Assembly (NCBI GenBank): GCA_017630995.1
Contig: JAGBUD010000058.1
Coordinates: 1-6,703 of the forward strand
DNA from: Clostridia bacterium
GTDB taxonomy: Bacteria; Bacillota_A; Clostridia; Oscillospirales; CAG-272
Length of the DNA stretch: 6,703 bases
Reading direction: 5' to 3'
Every line of letters starts with the position of its first letter. Positions within the stretch are counted from its first letter, which is position 1. Shown here piece after piece: positions 1-6,703 of this stretch. Under the pieces are notes generated by a model. The model did not search any database and was not told the origin of the DNA. It worked only from the letters and a program-made list of their open reading frames with translations. The position numbers and the translations under genes are program-made.

Positions 1-2159
1 CTTTTGATAGCTTTGACGTGTCGGGGCTTTCGCTCGGAGCAAGATATAAAAGCGGCAGAGTGGTTGATATTCCAAGAGATGAGCTTTGCGTTTCATATAA
101 GAATGGCGATGGCTTGCGCTTCGGTGATAATTACGTAACCGTTTCGTATATGGGGGTGAATATTTCCCATCCTATAACCGTTTATCCTGCGGAATACGAT
201 ATGAGCGGCGTTGAATTTTTTGACGAGGAGTTTATCTATGACGGCAGTGTCCATTATCCCACCCCCGTCGGCAAGCTGCCGACGGGGGTAGACGGAAGCT
301 CTCCGAGCGTCAGCTTTTCGTCGGGAGTCCTAAACGTTTCGGAGGGAAAGGTGACAGTAACTGTTTATTTCTATTCCGAGAGCGAAAACTACGCAAATCC
401 GAAGCCGATGACGGTCAGTTTATGCGTTTTGCCGCGCGGTGTAAGCGTCAGCTGGGGCGAGGCGGAGCATATATATAGCGGTGAGCCGTTTTTGCCTAGT
501 GCCTCTTGCGCGGAATGTGAAATTTCTCTGTCAGGCGCCGGCACGGCTGTCGGTGAATACACGGCGCGCGCAGTGTCCCTTGATTCAAATTATTACGTCT
601 TGAACGGTGAGCTTACGTTCAAAATTCTGAAAGCGGAAAACTCATGGGCAGAGGAGCCGAGCATTGAAAGCATATTCGCCACGGGAATCTTATCTCCGGT
701 TGGAAAATCCGCCTTTGGTGTAACCGAATATCTTTTTAAGTCCGAAGAGGAAATTATTGAAATGCCCCGCGTGGTAGGAAGATATTATTTCAAGGCGTAT
801 TCAAGCGGTGACGAAAATCACTATGCAATGGAATCTGAATGGATAGAATTCGAAATAAAGGCGGTTTTTGCGCTTGATTTTTGGGTCGAGCTTTCAAGGA
901 GCGAGTTTTTGACTCTGTCGCAAATTTCGGATAATGATATTTCGGCATTCGCCGAATATAACGACGGAAGCGTTAAGGAAATTCCATTCTCCGAAATCGA
1001 AATTGTATATAATAGCGGCGATTGCTTTTCTGTTGGGGACAGCTCCGTTTCATTTAGGTTTTCCGAGCTTTGCGCGTCGGGGAAAATAAGCGTTCAAAAG
1101 CGGGTAATCGGGCTTCCCGAAATTCCGAGCGTCGAGTATAGCGGCAAAAACCAAGCGCCAAATGAAATTGACCTCGATCTTTTTGATTATGAATTCGGAG
1201 AAATGCGCGATGTCGGAAAATACGAAATTACGCTCTCCGTAAAGGATACGGAAAATTACGAATTTGAAAACGGCAAGACACAGTGCGTCGCCCTCTTTGA
1301 AATTGAAAAGCGGCGTATAACCGTCAAAATCTCGGATATCGAAAAGTATTTCTTTTCAAAGGAAAGCGAGCCGGGCTTTGAGGTAGTGTCGGGCGCTCTT
1401 ATCAGCGGGGAGCCGCTCGTATGTGAGTATATCGTAAGCGGTGAGGCGGTAAACGCGGTATTCGAAAATTCAAATTACGAGGTCAACGTTATTCAAGGCA
1501 AGGTTGTCGAGTATAAAAGGCTCTCTCCCGGCGATTCGAGAAGCGCGTTTCTTTTGGTGATTATCTTTATATTCTCTATGCTTGCATTTGTGTTTATCTA
1601 TATAAACCGCAAGCGTATTTTGGAAGAGTACCGCGAGCACCTTTCAAAAAGCGATAGCTTTATCCCCTCAATGCCCGAGGCGGAGAAAAGCAAGCCGAGC
1701 GCAATCGAAAAGCGGAAATTCAAATCCGATTTGTCTGTAAGCGGCAATGCCGAGGAGGAGCGCGCCGAGGTAATCGCGGAAAAAATAGGGGAGATTGAAT
1801 TTGAATCGAGCGAGCAAACGGTGATAGACGCCGCCTATGCCGACGGCACGATAACAGATTCGCTTGCAAAAGACCTCTTGCGTCGCGATATTGATATAAT
1901 CACCGACGGCAGACGCAGAAGAATTATTAATATAGACACCTTATCAAGAAGCTTTGCCTCGGGTGATAGAATTGATATAAATATCCTAAAGGAAAAACGG
2001 CTGATTCCTTACGACACGGGGTATATAAAGGTGCTTGCAAGAGGGATTATAGATAAGCCGCTTGACGTCTACGCAAACGAATTCAGCCTTACCGCAGTTA
2101 AGATGATAGTCCTTTCGGGCGGCAAGGCTGTAAGAGTCAGCACGCAAAGGAAAAATTGA
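1..2159 (+). CDS. Membrane-anchored Ig-like/MBG-repeat surface protein with cytoplasmic uL15-like domain (5' partial)
   Basis: The frame is open from the left edge (first whole codon at 3), so the start is missing; the GTG at 18 lies inside a domain and is probably not the start. Residues below count from that GTG. Residues 1-60 and 284-362 are related Ig-like modules (Y-x-[SD]-G-x-V-x-[ED]-I-P, then Y-x-[NS]-G-D and [FV]-G-D). Residues 61-139, 140-208, 209-283, 363-431 and 432-503 resemble MBG/YDG-type repeats (YDGxxxYP, G-x-LP-x-GV, VGxY, DxxNY, VSGALISGE). Residues 510-529 form a hydrophobic helix followed by NRKR, a stop-transfer signal, so the repeats should be outside and about 180 residues inside. 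After a charged linker, residues 636-707 match the uL15 C-terminal domain: NIDTL at 638-642, IKVLARG at 670-676, KPLDVYANEFS at 680-690 and SGGKA at 700-704. The Gly/Lys/Arg-rich rRNA-binding half of true uL15 is absent. Adhesion or envelope sensing is plausible but not shown. No terminator is evident after the stop. Confidence 0.85.
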   Translation, partial: FDSFDVSGLSLGARYKSGRVVDIPRDELCVSYKNGDGLRFGDNYVTVSYMGVNISHPITVYPAEYDMSGVEFFDEEFIYDGSVHYPTPVGKLPTGVDGSSPSVSFSSGVLNVSEGKVTVTVYFYSESENYANPKPMTVSLCVLPRGVSVSWGEAEHIYSGEPFLPSASCAECEISLSGAGTAVGEYTARAVSLDSNYYVLNGELTFKILKAENSWAEEPSIESIFATGILSPVGKSAFGVTEYLFKSEEEIIEMPRVVGRYYFKAYSSGDENHYAMESEWIEFEIKAVFALDFWVELSRSEFLTLSQISDNDISAFAEYNDGSVKEIPFSEIEIVYNSGDCFSVGDSSVSFRFSELCASGKISVQKRVIGLPEIPSVEYSGKNQAPNEIDLDLFDYEFGEMRDVGKYEITLSVKDTENYEFENGKTQCVALFEIEKRRITVKISDIEKYFFSKESEPGFEVVSGALISGEPLVCEYIVSGEAVNAVFENSNYEVNVIQGKVVEYKRLSPGDSRSAFLLVIIFIFSMLAFVFIYINRKRILEEYREHLSKSDSFIPSMPEAEKSKPSAIEKRKFKSDLSVSGNAEEERAEVIAEKIGEIEFESSEQTVIDAAYADGTITDSLAKDLLRRDIDIITDGRRRRIINIDTLSRSFASGDRIDINILKEKRLIPYDTGYIKVLARGIIDKPLDVYANEFSLTAVKMIVLSGGKAVRVSTQRKN
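261..289. repeat. Perfect 13-bp inverted repeat with 3-nt loop inside the surface-protein gene
   Basis: The left arm 261-273 (ACCCCCGTCGGCA) is the exact reverse complement of the right arm 277-289, separated by AGC. It is strongly GC-rich compared with the surrounding coding sequence. It encodes the conserved G-x-LP-x-GV part of the first MBG/YDG-like repeat. There is no T-run on either side, so it is not a standard terminator. The fold would be very stable in mRNA or single-stranded DNA. Confidence 0.85.
1923..2138 (+). other. uL15 (ribosomal L15/L18e superfamily)-like domain inside the surface protein
   Basis: These codons encode the last conserved segment of the surface protein. The order of motifs follows bacterial uL15: hydrophobic-N-[LI]-D-x-L, a short helix region with F-A-x-G, a second L-x-E/K-x-x-[LV]-I segment, IKVL-x-x-G, K-[KP]-L-x-V-x-A-N-x-F-S, and a terminal GGKA. 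This was judged by eye against remembered uL15 sequences, not by a computed alignment. The segment just before it (about 595-635) is a predicted helical stretch ending in four arginines. Only the globular C-terminal part of uL15 is present, so it is not a functional ribosomal protein by itself. Confidence 0.75.
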
Positions 2160-2233: not shown

Positions 2234-2808
2234 AAAGGTATTTTATCATGGCAACAATAACAAAGACCGTTAACGTCAGAAAGCTCGTATATCTCGCAAT
2301 TCTGACGGCTCTTGTAATTCTTCTTCAGCTTGTATTCGCTCCCCTAATCGGCTCCGCAACAGGACTTTCGCCCGCTTTGGTTTTCATTCCGATAGTTTTG
2401 GGGGTCTCCGTATGCGGTATTTTCGGCGGAGCTTGGCTCGGTGCGGTGTTCTCGTTTATCGTTCTTTTTGATCCCACAACCGTTCCTTTCTTTGAGTACC
2501 GTCCGTTTTTCACGGTTTTGCTCGTATTTATGAAGGGTGTCGGCGCCGCGCTTATAGCAGGTCTTATTTTCAAGCTTCTTCGCAATAAAAACCGTTACGT
2601 TGCAATAACTCTTGCGGCTCTTGCAGCTCCCGTTGTTAACACGGCGATTTTCGTCCTCGGCTGCTATGCGTTTTTCCTTGAGCTTACGGGAGTGGAAATT
2701 TATGCGCTCTTTACCACGGTGAATTTCGGTGTTGAGGTAGCAGTTAACATCATTATGGTGCCCGTCGTTTACCGTATCCTTGAGGTCAGCAAGATTTCAT
2801 TAAACTAA
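2234..2808 (+). CDS. ECF transporter S component (substrate-binding membrane subunit), substrate unknown
   Basis: The ATG at 2248 is preceded by AAAGGT (2234-2239) at 8 nt spacing; the coding part is 2248-2808. The 186-residue product is almost wholly hydrophobic, with about five to six membrane segments: roughly 13-33, 43-59, 60-75, 87-110, 118-146 and 160-178. The length, the N-terminal basic stretch leading into an Ala-rich helix (LAILTALVILLQ), the small-residue-rich FGGAWLGAVFS segment ending in F-D-P (74-76), the PVVNTAIFVLG motif (128-138) and the C-terminal NFGVEVAVNIIMVP segment all fit S components of energy-coupling factor transporters. These bind a vitamin or other micronutrient and work with the shared EcfA-EcfA'-EcfT module, which is not in this window, so this looks like a group II (shared-energiser) system. 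I cannot assign the substrate: no riboswitch or biosynthetic neighbour points to one. Confidence 0.85.
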
Positions 2809-2815
2809 CTTAATC

Positions 2816-2849
2816 AAAGCCGCAGTCGGTATTTCACGGCTACGGCTTT
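2816..2849 (+). terminator. Possible weak hairpin between the ECF and RluA-family genes
   Basis: AAAGCCG (2816-2822) can pair with CGGCTTT (2843-2849) across a 20-nt interval that allows two more pairs after one mismatch. Only AACTTTAGG follows, with no continuous T-run, so termination would be inefficient at best. It could instead be a processing or attenuation hairpin that tunes expression of the downstream pair. Its right arm ends 6 bases before the AGGAG of the next gene. Confidence 0.25.
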
Positions 2850-2867
2850 AACTTTAGGAGATTTTCT

Positions 2868-3533
2868 GTGGAGATTTTATATAAGGACAAAAACGTTTTG
2901 GCGGTATTCAAGCCCCCGGCAATAGCCTCCCAGCCCGACCCTACGGGTGATGCGGACGCTATGACTCTGGCAGCAGGTATGCTTTCGGATATGGGTGAAA
3001 GCGACGACCTTTATCTCGTTCACAGGCTGGACAGAGTGGTTGGCGGTGTTCTTGTTTTTGCAAGGAATAAAAAGAGTGCGGCGGCGCTCTCCGAGCTTAT
3101 ATCAACCCACGTAGCAGAGAAGGATTATCTTGCCGTGGTTGAGGGTGTTGCAGAGGGAGGCAGACTCGTTGACCTGATTTTTAAGGACAGTGCAGCGGGC
3201 AAAAGCTTCGTCGTTGACAGAATGAGAGCGGGTGTCAAGGAAGCAAGGCTTACCTACGAGCCTATAAAAACGCTCGATATAGACGGCAGAGCAGCAACGC
3301 TCGTTAAAATCAGACTTGAAACGGGCAGATTTCATCAAATCCGCGCGCAGTTTTCATCGCGAAAAATGTCGCTTTTGGGAGATAAAAAGTACGGCAGCCG
3401 CGACGCAAAGGCGAAAATGCCCGCCCTCTTTGCATATCATCTCGGATTTGAGTTATTCGGAAAAAGATACGATTTTGAAAAAAAGCCTGACACACATACG
3501 TATCCGTGGTCTTGCTTCGGTGAATATATATGA
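2868..3533 (+). CDS. RluA-family RNA pseudouridine synthase
   Basis: The GTG start is fixed by AGGAG (2856-2860) at 7 nt spacing. The product has 221 residues and begins directly with the catalytic domain (ILYKDKNVLAVFKPP, the usual opening 'you are here' strand of RluA-type enzymes), so it lacks the N-terminal S4 RNA-binding domain found in RluC/RluD. The catalytic motif is HRLDR at 52-56 with the nucleophilic aspartate D55; it continues VVGGVLVFARN, a variant of the classic HRLDxxTSG seen in many clostridial members. The second conserved motif ETGRFHQIRAQF is in the C-terminal half, followed by the usual GDKKYGS. It should isomerise uridine to pseudouridine in rRNA or tRNA; the target position cannot be read from sequence. 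It overlaps the next gene by 4 bp (ATGA), suggesting translational coupling. Confidence 0.92.
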   Translation: MEILYKDKNVLAVFKPPAIASQPDPTGDADAMTLAAGMLSDMGESDDLYLVHRLDRVVGGVLVFARNKKSAAALSELISTHVAEKDYLAVVEGVAEGGRLVDLIFKDSAAGKSFVVDRMRAGVKEARLTYEPIKTLDIDGRAATLVKIRLETGRFHQIRAQFSSRKMSLLGDKKYGSRDAKAKMPALFAYHLGFELFGKRYDFEKKPDTHTYPWSCFGEYI

Positions 3534-4702
3534 CAGAAAAGCTATACTATAAAAGCGCATACATAAAAAGCTTCGACGCTTGCGTCTTGCTTTCTCAAAA
3601 GCGAGATGACGGAAGCTATATAACCGTTCTCGATAAAACAGCCTTCTTCCCCGAGGAGGGCGGTCAGTATTCTGATAGCGGAGAAATATCGGGCGATAAG
3701 GTTATCAAGGTTTATGAGGAGAGCGGAATTATATACCACGTCACCGAGCGCGAGCATAAGGTTGGAGAGTGCGTTTTCTGCTCGATTGATTTTGATGAAA
3801 GATACGAGAAAATGCAGTCACACACGGCAGAGCATATCCTTTCGGGAATCATTCATTCGCTTTACGGCTTAAATAACGTCGGCTTTCACCTCGGTGCAGA
3901 CGAGGTAACTATGGATATAGACGCGCCCCTTTCGGCAGAGGAGCTTGCAAGGGTTGAGCTTCTGGCAAACGAGGCAGTCTATAAAAACGTTGAGGTTGAG
4001 TCGCTTTTTCCCTCTGCACAGGAAGCGAAAAATATAGAATACCGTTCAAAGCTCGATATAACCGAGGGGCTTCGCATTATAAGAATAGGTGACGTTGACA
4101 GCTGCGCTTGCTGTGCGCCCCACGTTGCAAGAACGGGCGAAATCGGTGCAATAAAAATCCTCGATTTTGCGGGACTTCGCGGCGGAATACGAATCCGTAT
4201 TGCCGCAGGTCGCAGAGCGCAAAGAATTTTCGTGAAAATGCAAGAAAACCTAGCAAAAATATCCGCGCTTCTCTCTGTGCCAAAGCTCGAATGCGGGGTT
4301 GCGGTTGAAAAGCTCCTCTCTGATTATTCCGCCATAAAGGGCGAATTTTCCTCGTTTAAGCTCGGATATTATAAAAAGCTCGGTGAGTCGGCTGAAAGCG
4401 CGAGCGCCGCACTTTACAGCTTCGACGGTGCGGATTACGACGAGCTGCGCGCTTTCTTAAACGCGGCGGCAAGCCGCTTCGGTATGTTGATTTTGCTCTC
4501 CGTATGCGAGCAAAACGTGAAATACATAATTTATTCGTCAAATACCCCGATGAATACCGAAATCAAAAAAATAAACGCCGCCCTCTGCGGTAAGGGCGGC
4601 GGTAAATCCGATATGGTTCAAGGTAGCTTCTCGCTCGATATCGAAAGCATTGAAGACTATTTTTTAAAGGAATACGGCGCGCGTATCAGTCCTCGCACTT
4701 GA
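3530..4702 (+). CDS. AlaX-like alanyl-tRNA editing protein with DHHA1 domain
   Basis: The 390-residue product resembles the editing half of alanyl-tRNA synthetase without the aminoacylation domain. Residues 1-90 form the AlaX/tRNA_SAD N-terminal barrel with the FFPEEGGQ.SDSG motif (39-50). The zinc and catalytic site is HTAEH (H98, H102) plus C-x3-H in SCACCAPH (C194, H198), equivalent to the CGGTH motif of AlaRS. The C-terminal part is a coiled linker then a DHHA1 domain with its GKGGGKSDMVQG loop (354-365). The family hydrolyses mischarged Ser- or Gly-tRNA(Ala), protecting translation accuracy. All key residues are present, so it should be active. The ATG overlaps the stop of the pseudouridine synthase gene (ATGA) and has no strong ribosome binding site of its own, consistent with coupled translation. 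Its 3' end overlaps the convergent deaminase gene by 17 bp. Confidence 0.9.
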   Translation: MTEKLYYKSAYIKSFDACVLLSQKRDDGSYITVLDKTAFFPEEGGQYSDSGEISGDKVIKVYEESGIIYHVTEREHKVGECVFCSIDFDERYEKMQSHTAEHILSGIIHSLYGLNNVGFHLGADEVTMDIDAPLSAEELARVELLANEAVYKNVEVESLFPSAQEAKNIEYRSKLDITEGLRIIRIGDVDSCACCAPHVARTGEIGAIKILDFAGLRGGIRIRIAAGRRAQRIFVKMQENLAKISALLSVPKLECGVAVEKLLSDYSAIKGEFSSFKLGYYKKLGESAESASAALYSFDGADYDELRAFLNAAASRFGMLILLSVCEQNVKYIIYSSNTPMNTEIKKINAALCGKGGGKSDMVQGSFSLDIESIEDYFLKEYGARISPRT

Positions 4703-5183
4703 GGTTTAGAACAATCTCCGTCTTTGTGGGCTTGATTCGCGTGAGCTTAACTCCCGCTGCGTTCAGCATTCTTCTCGATGCTATTGTGGAGGGAGTATTC
4801 TTATATTTATCCGAGAGGTAAACGACCTCTGCCACGCCCGCTTGAATTATCGCCTTTGCGCATTCGTTGCAGGGGAAAAGGGCAACGTAAAGCTTTGAGC
4901 CCGCAAGGTTCTTTCCTCTTGAATTGAGAATTGCGTTAAGCTCCGCGTGAACGACGAACTGATATTTGGTCTCGCCCTCGGCTTCGTTTCTGTTCCAAGG
5001 AAACTCGTCGTCGGAGCAGCCGTGCGGAAATCCGTTATATCCCGTTGAGAGTATGCGGTTATTCTCGTCAACTATGCAAGCGCCAACTTGAGTGTTGGGG
5101 TCCTTTGAACGCTCTGCGGCAAGAAGTGCCACTCCCATAAAGTAGTCGTCCCAGGTTATGTAGTCTTGTCTTTTATCTGCCAT
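4686..5183 (-). CDS. Deoxycytidylate (dCMP) deaminase family protein
   Basis: The 165-residue product carries the zinc-dependent cytidine/dCMP deaminase signature: HAEL with H79 (zinc ligand) and E81 (proton shuttle), and PCNECAK with C105 and C108 (zinc ligands). The N-terminal W-D-x-Y-F-M and SKDPNTQVGACIVD segments, the GYNGFPHGCSDDEFPW loop and the overall length are typical of dCMP deaminases (ComEB/Dctd type), which convert dCMP to dUMP for thymidylate synthesis. Cytosolic. The ATG at 5183 has GAGGTA (5196-5191) 7 nt upstream and a consensus promoter, so the start is secure. The gene stands alone on this strand, diverges from the radical SAM gene and converges on the AlaX gene. A related free-nucleoside or other nucleotide deaminase specificity cannot be excluded. 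Confidence 0.92.
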   Translation of the reverse strand: MADKRQDYITWDDYFMGVALLAAERSKDPNTQVGACIVDENNRILSTGYNGFPHGCSDDEFPWNRNEAEGETKYQFVVHAELNAILNSRGKNLAGSKLYVALFPCNECAKAIIQAGVAEVVYLSDKYKNTPSTIASRRMLNAAGVKLTRIKPTKTEIVLNLKCED

Positions 5184-5214
5184 GGCTATTTACCTCAAAT
5201 ATCCGTTTTTTAAG

Positions 5215-5243
5215 ATTATAGCACATATTTTTTAGCATGTCAA
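5215..5243 (-). promoter_or_regulatory. Consensus sigma-A promoter of the dCMP deaminase gene
   Basis: On the minus strand TTGACA (5243-5238) is followed by a 17-bp spacer (5237-5221) and TATAAT (5220-5215), with TGC immediately before the -10 box, an extended -10. Both hexamers match consensus at all six positions. Transcription should start near 5208, giving a leader of about 25 nt that holds only the ribosome binding site. The -35 box lies only 22 bp upstream of the divergent radical SAM start codon. Confidence 0.85.
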
Positions 5244-5254
5244 CATTATAAATT

Positions 5255-6174
5255 TTGGAGAAAATATGAAAAGCGAAGCCTTTAGTGAAAAAAACTATGA
5301 GAAATGTATGCTTTGCGCCCACTCCTGCGGTGTTAACAGAACGCGGGGAGAGGTCGGAAGATGCGGTGCAACCGATAAAATAATTCTCGCCCGTGCCGCG
5401 CTTCATAAATGGGAGGAGCCTATCATTTCGGGCAACGTCGGCTCGGGAACAATCTTCTTTTCGGGTTGCTCGCTCGGTTGCGTATACTGTCAAAATTACG
5501 ACATAAGCCGAGGAAAAATAAAAAAAGAGGTCACGCCGCAGCGCCTCTCGCAAATTATGCTTGAGCTTGAATCGCGCGGTGCGCATAACGTCAATTTCGT
5601 AACGCCAACGCACTTTGCGCCCTCCGTAATATCCGCAACTGCCGCGGCTCGCGCTGCGGGGCTCACTGTTCCTATCGTATATAATACGTCTTCATTCGAT
5701 TCCTTAAACACCGTTCGCGCCCTCGACGGCACGGTAGACGTCTATCTTGCCGACCTTAAATATCACACGCAGAATCTCGCGCAAAAATATTCCTATGCCA
5801 AGGAATATCCCGCGGCGGCAAAAGCCGCTATCGAGGAGATGGTAAAGCAAAAGGGCGCGGCAGTTATACGCGATTCGCTTATGAAATCCGGCGTTATAAT
5901 AAGAATTCTCATTCTCCCCGGGCATATAGCCGAGGCAAAGCTCCTTATATCCTACGTCTTGCAAAAATACGGCAGTGACGTATATTTAAGCCTTATGAGC
6001 CAATACACGCCGCCTGCCGATATGCCGCCCCCGATAAACCGCAAGCTTACCCGCGCGGAATACGAGGAGGTCTGTGATTTCGCGGTCAAAAAGGGTCTTA
6101 AATGCGGATTTTTCCAAGAGCCCGAAAGTGCCTCCGAGGATTTTATTCCCGATTTTGATTTCAGCGGAGTTTAA
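5255..6174 (+). CDS. PflX-like radical SAM protein (putative glycyl-radical-enzyme activase relative)
   Basis: The coding part is 5266-6174; TTGGAG at 5255-5260 lies 5 nt before the ATG. The 302-residue product has the radical SAM cluster motif C-x3-C-x2-C as GCSLGCVYCQNYDIS (C68, C72, C75), binding a [4Fe-4S] cluster that cleaves S-adenosylmethionine. Upstream of it is a second cysteine set, C14-x2-C17-x3-C21-x11-C33, in the context CGVNRTRGEVGRCGA, followed by ARAALHKWEEPIISG and GSGTIFFSG. This arrangement is characteristic of the PflX group (COG1313), annotated as putative pyruvate formate-lyase activating proteins but with no firmly established substrate. No glycyl radical enzyme is encoded nearby. 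A strong promoter of its own is not obvious in the 80-bp divergent gap. The gene ends 1 bp before the convergent membrane-protein gene. Confidence 0.9.
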
Positions 6175-6175
6175 A

Positions 6176-6703
6176 CTACTTACTTATAGAATAATTCATC
6201 GTCATAGGGTCGCGGAAAAGAGGAATGTGCGGCGGATAATAGGTGAAAATGACGAAAGCCAAAAGGTATGCCGCCATAATCGAAAGCGCCGCAATCTCAA
6301 ATGCTCCGCCCGAAAAGCGCATAGGCTTTAACATTCTGTAGAATGAAAATCCGAATGCAACGAGGAATGCTGAAATGAAAATTCCGATGTTAACCGCCAT
6401 ATTGTTAACCCCGAATGCACCGATTACAGTGTAGTAATTCGTAATCATAAAGAGAAGTCCAAGGGTAAGTCCCGAAAGCTTTGCCGTAAAGAAGCAGTGC
6501 ACGTCCTTTCCGTAAACGAAATATTCTGCCACGGTAGCGTAAATGAAAGGGAAATAAAGAAGCTTTAGGTGCTCCCAAATGCTCTCGTTAACGGGGGATA
6601 TAAGACCGACGATCAAGTTTTCGCCCGTCCAGTCAAAAGTAAAATGTAAAAGCGTTCCTATAGTTATGCTCAAAAGAAAAAGAATTATCGTGGTAACCGT
6701 GTA
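6176..6703 (-). CDS. DUF6512-like small integral membrane protein (5' partial)
   Basis: The frame stays open to the right edge. The TTG at 6673 looks like an internal codon, not the start, because upstream codons continue a hydrophobic helix (YTVTTIILFLLSITIGTLLHF), so only the first few residues are missing. Five membrane segments are visible: this first helix, then around LKLLYFPFIYATVAEYF, LSGLTLGLLFMITNYY, IGIFISAFLVAFGFSFY and IAALSIMAAYLLAFVIFTYYPP. The loop after helix 1 has PVNESIWEHLKL, a motif I associate with the uncharacterised DUF6512 family of about 170-190 residues; the exact family number is from memory. Function is unknown. The stop TAG is 1 bp from the end of the convergent radical SAM gene, leaving no room for a shared terminator. 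Confidence 0.75.
   Translation of the reverse strand, partial: YTVTTIILFLLSITIGTLLHFTFDWTGENLIVGLISPVNESIWEHLKLLYFPFIYATVAEYFVYGKDVHCFFTAKLSGLTLGLLFMITNYYTVIGAFGVNNMAVNIGIFISAFLVAFGFSFYRMLKPMRFSGGAFEIAALSIMAAYLLAFVIFTYYPPHIPLFRDPMTMNYSISK

Follow-up and report, generated by a model that had tools for sequence, protein, structure and literature searches.

Some Clostridia carry a ribosomal uL15-like domain as the C-terminal tail of membrane-anchored surface proteins

To our knowledge, the fold of uL15 and eL18 has been described from ribosomes only. Bacterial surface proteins with Ig-like repeats usually stop soon after their membrane helix, or bear a sorting signal. A review of extraribosomal functions (PMC10931766) names uL15 a single time in the available portion, where it appears as part of the spc operon, and a paper on the ribosome of Enterococcus faecalis describes variable loops in the C-terminal domain of uL15 (PMC7530986). 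Our search of the open-access literature brought up no account of uL15 domains in surface proteins, nor did the phrase "uL15 family ribosomal protein" appear in the literature searched. What was known already is the domain itself (PF00828) and some annotated records; the reuse of a ribosomal-protein domain on surface proteins, for which we found no paper, appears to be new.

The window (the whole 6,703-nucleotide stretch of DNA that was analyzed) opens with a gene of 718 codons (nt 3..2159, + strand) whose 5' end is open. The encoded ectodomain (residues 1-513; 3..1541, +) is made of Ig-like/MBG-type repeats, with its N-terminus cut off by the window edge. Pfam's Big_3 (PF07523) matches residues 2-60 (E = 2e-6); an MBG_2 match reached 18.3 bits, which is below its cut-off of 25. 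The 5' end of the window protein lies outside the window, and a full-length relative (P0008, 1177 amino acids) has a hydrophobic segment at its N-terminus. The ectodomain is followed by a membrane helix (residues 514-534; 1542..1604, +), with a hydropathy of 3.05 over residues 516-534, and directly after it by a basic stop-transfer that we read from the sequence, NRKRILEEYREH (1605..1640, +). With its Ig-like ectodomain, helix, and basic cytoplasmic flank, the protein is a membrane-anchored Ig-like surface protein. The initial annotation had described a repeat ectodomain and a single membrane helix with a basic stop-transfer, and the Big_3 match, the hydropathy, and NRKRILEEYREH bear this out. 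In the translation of the window gene, we saw no LPXTG signal by eye within 30 residues upstream of the helix, and 184 residues follow the helix, unlike the short basic end of sortase-anchored (LPXTG) proteins. On these two grounds we did not class the protein as sortase-anchored.

The rest of the window (2248-6703) carries genes for an ECF transporter S component, an RluA-type pseudouridine synthase, an AlaX-like tRNA editing protein, a dCMP/cytidine deaminase (- strand), a radical SAM protein, and a DUF6512 protein (- strand). Two other loci, L001 and L108, also contain relatives of the window's RluA, AlaX, deaminase, and radical SAM genes. An Rfam scan of the window gave no match at the gathering score.

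Beyond the stop-transfer, the window protein continues with a charged cytoplasmic linker of about 60 residues (1641..1820, +), a cap (1821..1901, +), and the globular domain of uL15 (residues 641-710; 1923..2132, +), which we identified from a PF00828 match and a predicted fold. PF00828 (Ribosomal_L27A) matches residues 641-710 over the whole profile (positions 1-72 of 72; E = 1.4e-11; 45 bits against a cut-off of 21.5). The bacterial rplO model TIGR01071 matches only at its positions 74-143 of 144 (E = 1.2e-6), with 28.4 bits against a curated cut-off of 77.95, and the eL18/L18e model NF003079 matches residues 676-713 (E = 3.3e-4). Among the 42 PDB sequences found at E ≤ 10, 39 are named as uL15/L15/L27A or eL18; of the remainder, 5xy3_a was deposited without a name and two are unrelated. 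The predicted fold of the tail is near-identical to that of uL15 and superposes on it. The likeness to uL15 that the initial annotation had proposed is upheld by the whole-profile match and by this superposition; the two outcomes that it had named as fatal (no significant uL15/L18e profile match, or a predicted fold that does not superpose) were both checked, and neither occurred. It had also stated that the Gly-rich rRNA-binding half is missing, and the alignment to TIGR01071 from position 74 onwards agrees: this N-terminal half is absent from the tail, and across 58 genomes, the below-cut-off (tail) matches listed start at TIGR01071 position 60 or later. Its place is taken by the tail-specific cap, an EAxxLISDxxAxxLI-type sequence with two short helices (model residues 8-14 and 17-23, or protein residues 610-616 and 619-625, in the predicted model). 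The rplO gene sits in the spc operon, before secY; there is no secY among the genes 3' of the tail gene, and its upstream side is outside the window. In its missing N-terminal half, its score below the TIGR01071 cut-off, its lack of the invariant residues of rplO (see below), and its gene order without a following secY, the window tail departs from a functional ribosomal uL15.

Residues 500-718, used as the query of a protein search, gave 95 homologs, all of which contain PF00828. Two of the 95 have a source name, which is "uL15 family ribosomal protein [Clostridia bacterium]", the kind of mislabelling that the initial annotation had said might occur. More than one PF00828 match was found in 4 of 293 genomes of the class of genome G001, G001 included. 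A search with the tail alignment found tails in 9 of 295 genomes of G001's order, where they separated cleanly from rplO: tails had E ≤ 5.5e-26 and started at model positions 1-2, while the rplO-type matches listed had E ≥ 1.3e-16 and started at position 26 or later. At E ≤ 1e-20, tails are present in 33 of 196 genomes of G001's family, in 33 of 247 genomes of G005's order, and, within a phylum sample, in 1 of 299 genomes, which is G001 itself. The five loci with named sources come from Clostridia bacteria, one Christensenellaceae bacterium, and Candidatus Alloclostridium intestinigallinarum. All five are from metagenome-assembled genomes (four by title and one by contig name), as might be expected if the tail were a chance similarity, a misassembly, or an annotation artefact. 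We give that explanation a negligible probability in view of the 95 homologs, the E value of 1.4e-11, the near-identical fold, and the syntenic copies in L001 and L108; the number of homologs, together with the tails in 33 of 196 and 33 of 247 genomes, refutes it. The presence of a uL15-like tail on a surface-anchored repeat protein is confirmed as real.

One genome of 1.6 Mb (G874) has 13 uL15-tail matches (L081-L093). Several of its tails are in proteins of 1926-2529 amino acids that have long E/K/R/Q-rich cytoplasmic stretches, and many of its tail genes run into contig ends, as one would expect if assembly fails at tails of near-identical sequence.

We looked for rplO in 58 of the 68 genomes that we had identified as carriers. 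A separate rplO scored above the cut-off in 53 of the 58 (including G658, where it matched only over positions 1-104 of 144), as the initial annotation had anticipated. The other five (G578, G670, G689, G711, and G731) had tail-type matches only and no rplO above the cut-off, probably because these assemblies are incomplete. The initial annotation holds for the uL15 identity, the fold, the missing half, the cytoplasmic side (see below), the separate rplO, and the mislabelling. It does not hold where it said that this domain is not a normal module of cell-surface proteins, as the tail is recurrent on surface proteins in parts of the Clostridia.

To place the tail relative to the membrane, we used 155 proteins, of which 95 are the homologs and 60 come from loci; the set includes some duplicates and near-copies. 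A helix precedes the tail in 138 of the 155, and several of the 17 members without a helix start at contig ends. When we counted lysine and arginine in the 15 residues on either side of the last helix, there were more after it in 116 of 138 proteins, with 15 ties and 7 in the reverse direction. Furthermore, in L133-L135, a tail protein without a transmembrane helix is encoded next to a protein whose N-terminus carries a hydrophobic segment. The latter protein also has a C-terminal helix in L134 and L135, and in L133 it is cut by the contig end. Because of the charge bias and because of these helix-less tail proteins, we conclude that the tail is cytoplasmic, as first described.

The tail is also nearly fixed in its place, and it is conserved. 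No more than 20 residues lie between the tail and the C-terminus in 153 of the 155 proteins, and the maximum is 24. Its identity to the window tail has a median of 62.6% across 64 window-type homologs, while the ectodomains have a median identity to the window's of 31.6% (60 homologs with at least 200 aligned residues). One conserved tail at the end of many diverging ectodomains is what would be expected of a docking module, and we propose, at roughly even chances, that a duplicate of the uL15 C-domain became a cytoplasmic docking module of surface proteins that binds a candidate partner. The C-terminal globular domain of uL15 would have been duplicated, and the copy would have shed the rRNA-binding half and acquired the helical cap at its N-terminal end along with a remodelled helix at its C-terminal end. 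In some Clostridia it would then have come to form the cytoplasmic C-terminus of surface proteins anchored in the membrane. Its remodelled face may then bind a common cytoplasmic or membrane-associated protein, or other tails, and docking of this kind could cluster, position, or retain surface proteins with differing ectodomains. In short, surface proteins seem to have gained an inner handle that was once part of the ribosome. One locus outside the 155-protein set, L049, fits this proposal less well, as 108 residues follow its tail.

From 234 cut-outs we kept 131 tails that are non-redundant at 90%, and we compared them with 17 rplO proteins from G001's order, using the numbering of the window protein. 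G681, K685, A698, I702, G706, and G707 are common to both. K699, K701, E703, and E710 are invariant in the 17 rplO proteins; in the tails, 699 is V or I, 701 is M (1.00), 703 is mostly A, V, or L, and 710 is mostly I or V. (The window protein has V, M, and V at 699, 701, and 703.) E700 (0.76 in rplO) is replaced by K (0.99 in tails), T684 (0.88) by D (0.78), and N680 (0.65) by R (0.75). In the cap, A613 (.83), D619 (.94), and A622 (.95) are conserved across the 131 tails. The last helix is the segment that differs from rplO most consistently, with three of rplO's invariant charged residues being hydrophobic in tails; the class-defining segment of the window protein is FSLTAVKMIVLSGG (2082..2123, +), with V699, K700, and M701 where rplO has K699, mostly E700, and K701. 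As read from the alignment, this conserved charged-to-hydrophobic switch suggests contact with a protein, or packing within the domain, more than the ribosomal site, and it favors docking, although the new hydrophobic residues may just pack on the tail's own cap. We rejected the argument that loss of charge means loss of RNA binding, as the domain has no less net charge in tails (+1.6) than in rplO (+0.35). This charge, along with the conservation of K676, K685, and the newly gained K700, is compatible with RNA binding and counts against docking. In a tree of 45 tails and 17 rplO sequences (72 columns; unrooted, with clostridial rplO only), one branch (100/99) separates the two sets. This single branch, and the separate rplO of most carriers, count in favor of the docking proposal. 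The identity of the domain, its cytoplasmic side, and its single branch apart from rplO are supported.

K676, K685, and K700 also suit the alternative suggested by the initial annotation, a ribosome or RNA tether, which would attach ribosomes, assembly intermediates, or mRNA to the membrane. Its fold is that of an rRNA-binding protein, and in many relatives it adjoins a YjbR/MmcQ-like domain, whose fold is described as double-wing DNA-binding (PMC7641849). Such a tether would have to work without the half that threads into rRNA and after the loss of K699, K701, E703, and E710, and alongside the cell's own uL15, which should fill the ribosomal site. We think it unlikely.

Relatives of the window protein differ in what precedes the tail. 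Window-type proteins (architecture A) have an N-terminal hydrophobic segment, an Ig/MBG ectodomain, a transmembrane helix, the linker, and the tail. Architecture B has a single N-terminal transmembrane helix, an acidic stretch, a YY domain, and the tail. Architecture C has other ectodomains, such as the Flg_new/InlB-type repeat of P0084, and then a transmembrane helix, YY, and the tail. Lengths range from 171 and 177 amino acids in L106 and L107, which are just a transmembrane helix and a tail, to 5176, 5218, and 5335 amino acids in L094, L096, and L098. In L004:3711-8357 there are five stretches of InlB-type (Flg_new) repeats, and the best of these (residues 623-667) follows the helix at 601-619 and so is on its predicted cytoplasmic side. 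P0072 has GTPase-type Pfam domains beside PF00828 and is possibly a chimeric assembly; it shares its last 130 residues with P0073-P0082.

YY is our name for a cytoplasmic domain with the pattern RSFxAKLIQS...YYxELKN and no convincing Pfam match (examples are P0070, P0099, and L127). It is present in 40 of the 60 tail proteins from loci and in 24 of the 95 homologs. The YY profile did not match any other gene called in the tail loci; elsewhere, 14 of its 17 matches lack PF00828, and seven of these have DUF1508. Neither YY nor DUF1508 matches the window protein, whose linker lacks the YjbR-like domain. A predicted model of YY plus tail (pLDDT 87.7, pTM 0.65) matched E. coli YjbR (2fki) in Foldseek at rank 25 (E = 4.3e-3, probability 1.00), with a TM-score of 0.61 by target and an rmsd of 4.4. 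The best 50 VIA-align rows for the same model were all of the ribosomal uL15 type, with no YjbR, so the likeness of YY to YjbR comes solely from Foldseek. DUF1508 repeats, with two matched stretches in each protein, lie between the membrane helix and the tail in L117:9848-11563 (- strand) and L105:8331-10175 (+ strand).

These modular cytoplasmic halves, and the pairing of the YjbR-like domain with DUF1508 in proteins without uL15, would suit a tail that relays the state of the ectodomain to the cytoplasm. We consider such a signalling role quite improbable, as the minimal members have nothing except a helix and the tail, and among the 40 largest clusters of neighboring genes (see below), the sole signalling-like one is c22, which is response-regulator-like by eye and was found only in L093 and L128.

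Of the 60 tail genes, 24 were short (under 600 amino acids) after those at contig edges were dropped. We asked how often these abut a co-directional gene for a surface protein, defined as at least 500 amino acids long and bearing one to three hydrophobic segments in positions that suit such a protein. Eight of the 24 do, at 3-31 bp (L117, L122, L123, L128, L131, L133, L134, and L135), versus 11 of 401 other genes; Fisher's exact test gives 1.5e-6, which is too small a value, since kinship among L133-L135, and between L123 and L128, leaves about five independent cases. This split form argues for docking. We also clustered 680 genes from 64 loci and the window. Apart from the adjacent surface proteins of the split form, none of the families in the 40 largest clusters is seen repeatedly at one set place next to tail genes, which counts against docking. 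Cluster 1, whose sequence is that of an ABC-type ATPase, is present in 16 loci, and its position relative to the tail gene varies. Among clusters found in 3-4 loci, c13 and c14 are surface proteins that adjoin the tail gene (in L123 and L128, and in L133-L135); L132 belongs with these loci, and no tail gene was called there. Others of this size are common to syntenic relatives (the window, L001, and L108; or L003-L005).

A folded domain could also hold a protein in place with no specific partner, as a stable cytoplasmic knob that stops surface proteins from slipping out of cells that lack a sortase. This would account for retention and for the almost invariable C-terminal position of the tail, and sortase (PF04203) is indeed rare in carriers: it was found in 5 of 66 genomes with tails (3 of 16 and 2 of 50) and in 24 of 40 sampled relatives without tails (20 listed of 163 from G001's family and 20 listed of 214 from G005's order). 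By group, the counts are 5 of 33 versus 13 of 20, and 0 of 33 versus 11 of 20. Pooled, Fisher's exact test gives 6.6e-9, with kinship ignored. On an RpoB tree of 97 of the 106 genomes (nine with RpoB missing or partial were left out), there are at least 17 changes in the presence of the tail, 7 of them forced by well-supported branches, and 12 in that of sortase. Across 7 supported independent pairs, sortase was on average opposite to the tail in 1.0, the same in 0.1, and no different in 5.8; in G005's order, many tail-less neighbors of carriers also lack sortase. As the association is not significant on this tree, and as the tail-less sample is limited to the genomes listed, we rejected it as proof of a link. 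The direction fits and the 7-pair test is low in power, so we treat the rarity of sortase in carriers as a lead. A passive knob would need neither the helix-less tail proteins of L133-L135 nor the conserved tail-specific residues, and we regard it as distinctly unlikely.

A stronger form of the docking proposal would give certain Clostridia a dedicated attachment system for surface proteins: the uL15-like tail, whether fused or encoded by an adjacent gene, would plug into one common putative cytoplasmic receptor and take the role that sortases have in other bacteria. We consider this possible but doubtful.

If the docking proposal is correct, a core ribosomal domain would have taken an unrelated job as the inner tail of a large family of surface proteins, and the conserved residues of the tail would show where to seek the partner. 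For annotation, surface proteins can be entered as ribosomal proteins, as with the two named homologs, and marker-gene counts based on PF00828 could mislead in a genome such as G874, with its 13 extra matches.

Compared with uL15 (rplO; PF00828 and TIGR01071), the tail lacks the N-terminal rRNA-binding half, is fused to the C-terminus of a membrane protein, and has V/K/M/hydrophobic in place of the K/E/K/E helix, and most of the carriers tested have a separate rplO. The eL18/L18e proteins share the domain family PF00828, but they match the tail less well than bacterial rplO does (3.3e-4 versus 1.2e-6) and belong to the archaeal/eukaryotic ribosome. MmcQ/YjbR-like and DUF1508 modules adjoin the uL15-like tail on the cytoplasmic side in relatives and have no match in the window protein. 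Finally, the window protein is like the bacterial Ig-like surface proteins (with Big_3 or MBG repeats) in its ectodomain repeats and its C-terminal membrane helix, and differs from them by the folded cytoplasmic domain that follows the helix.
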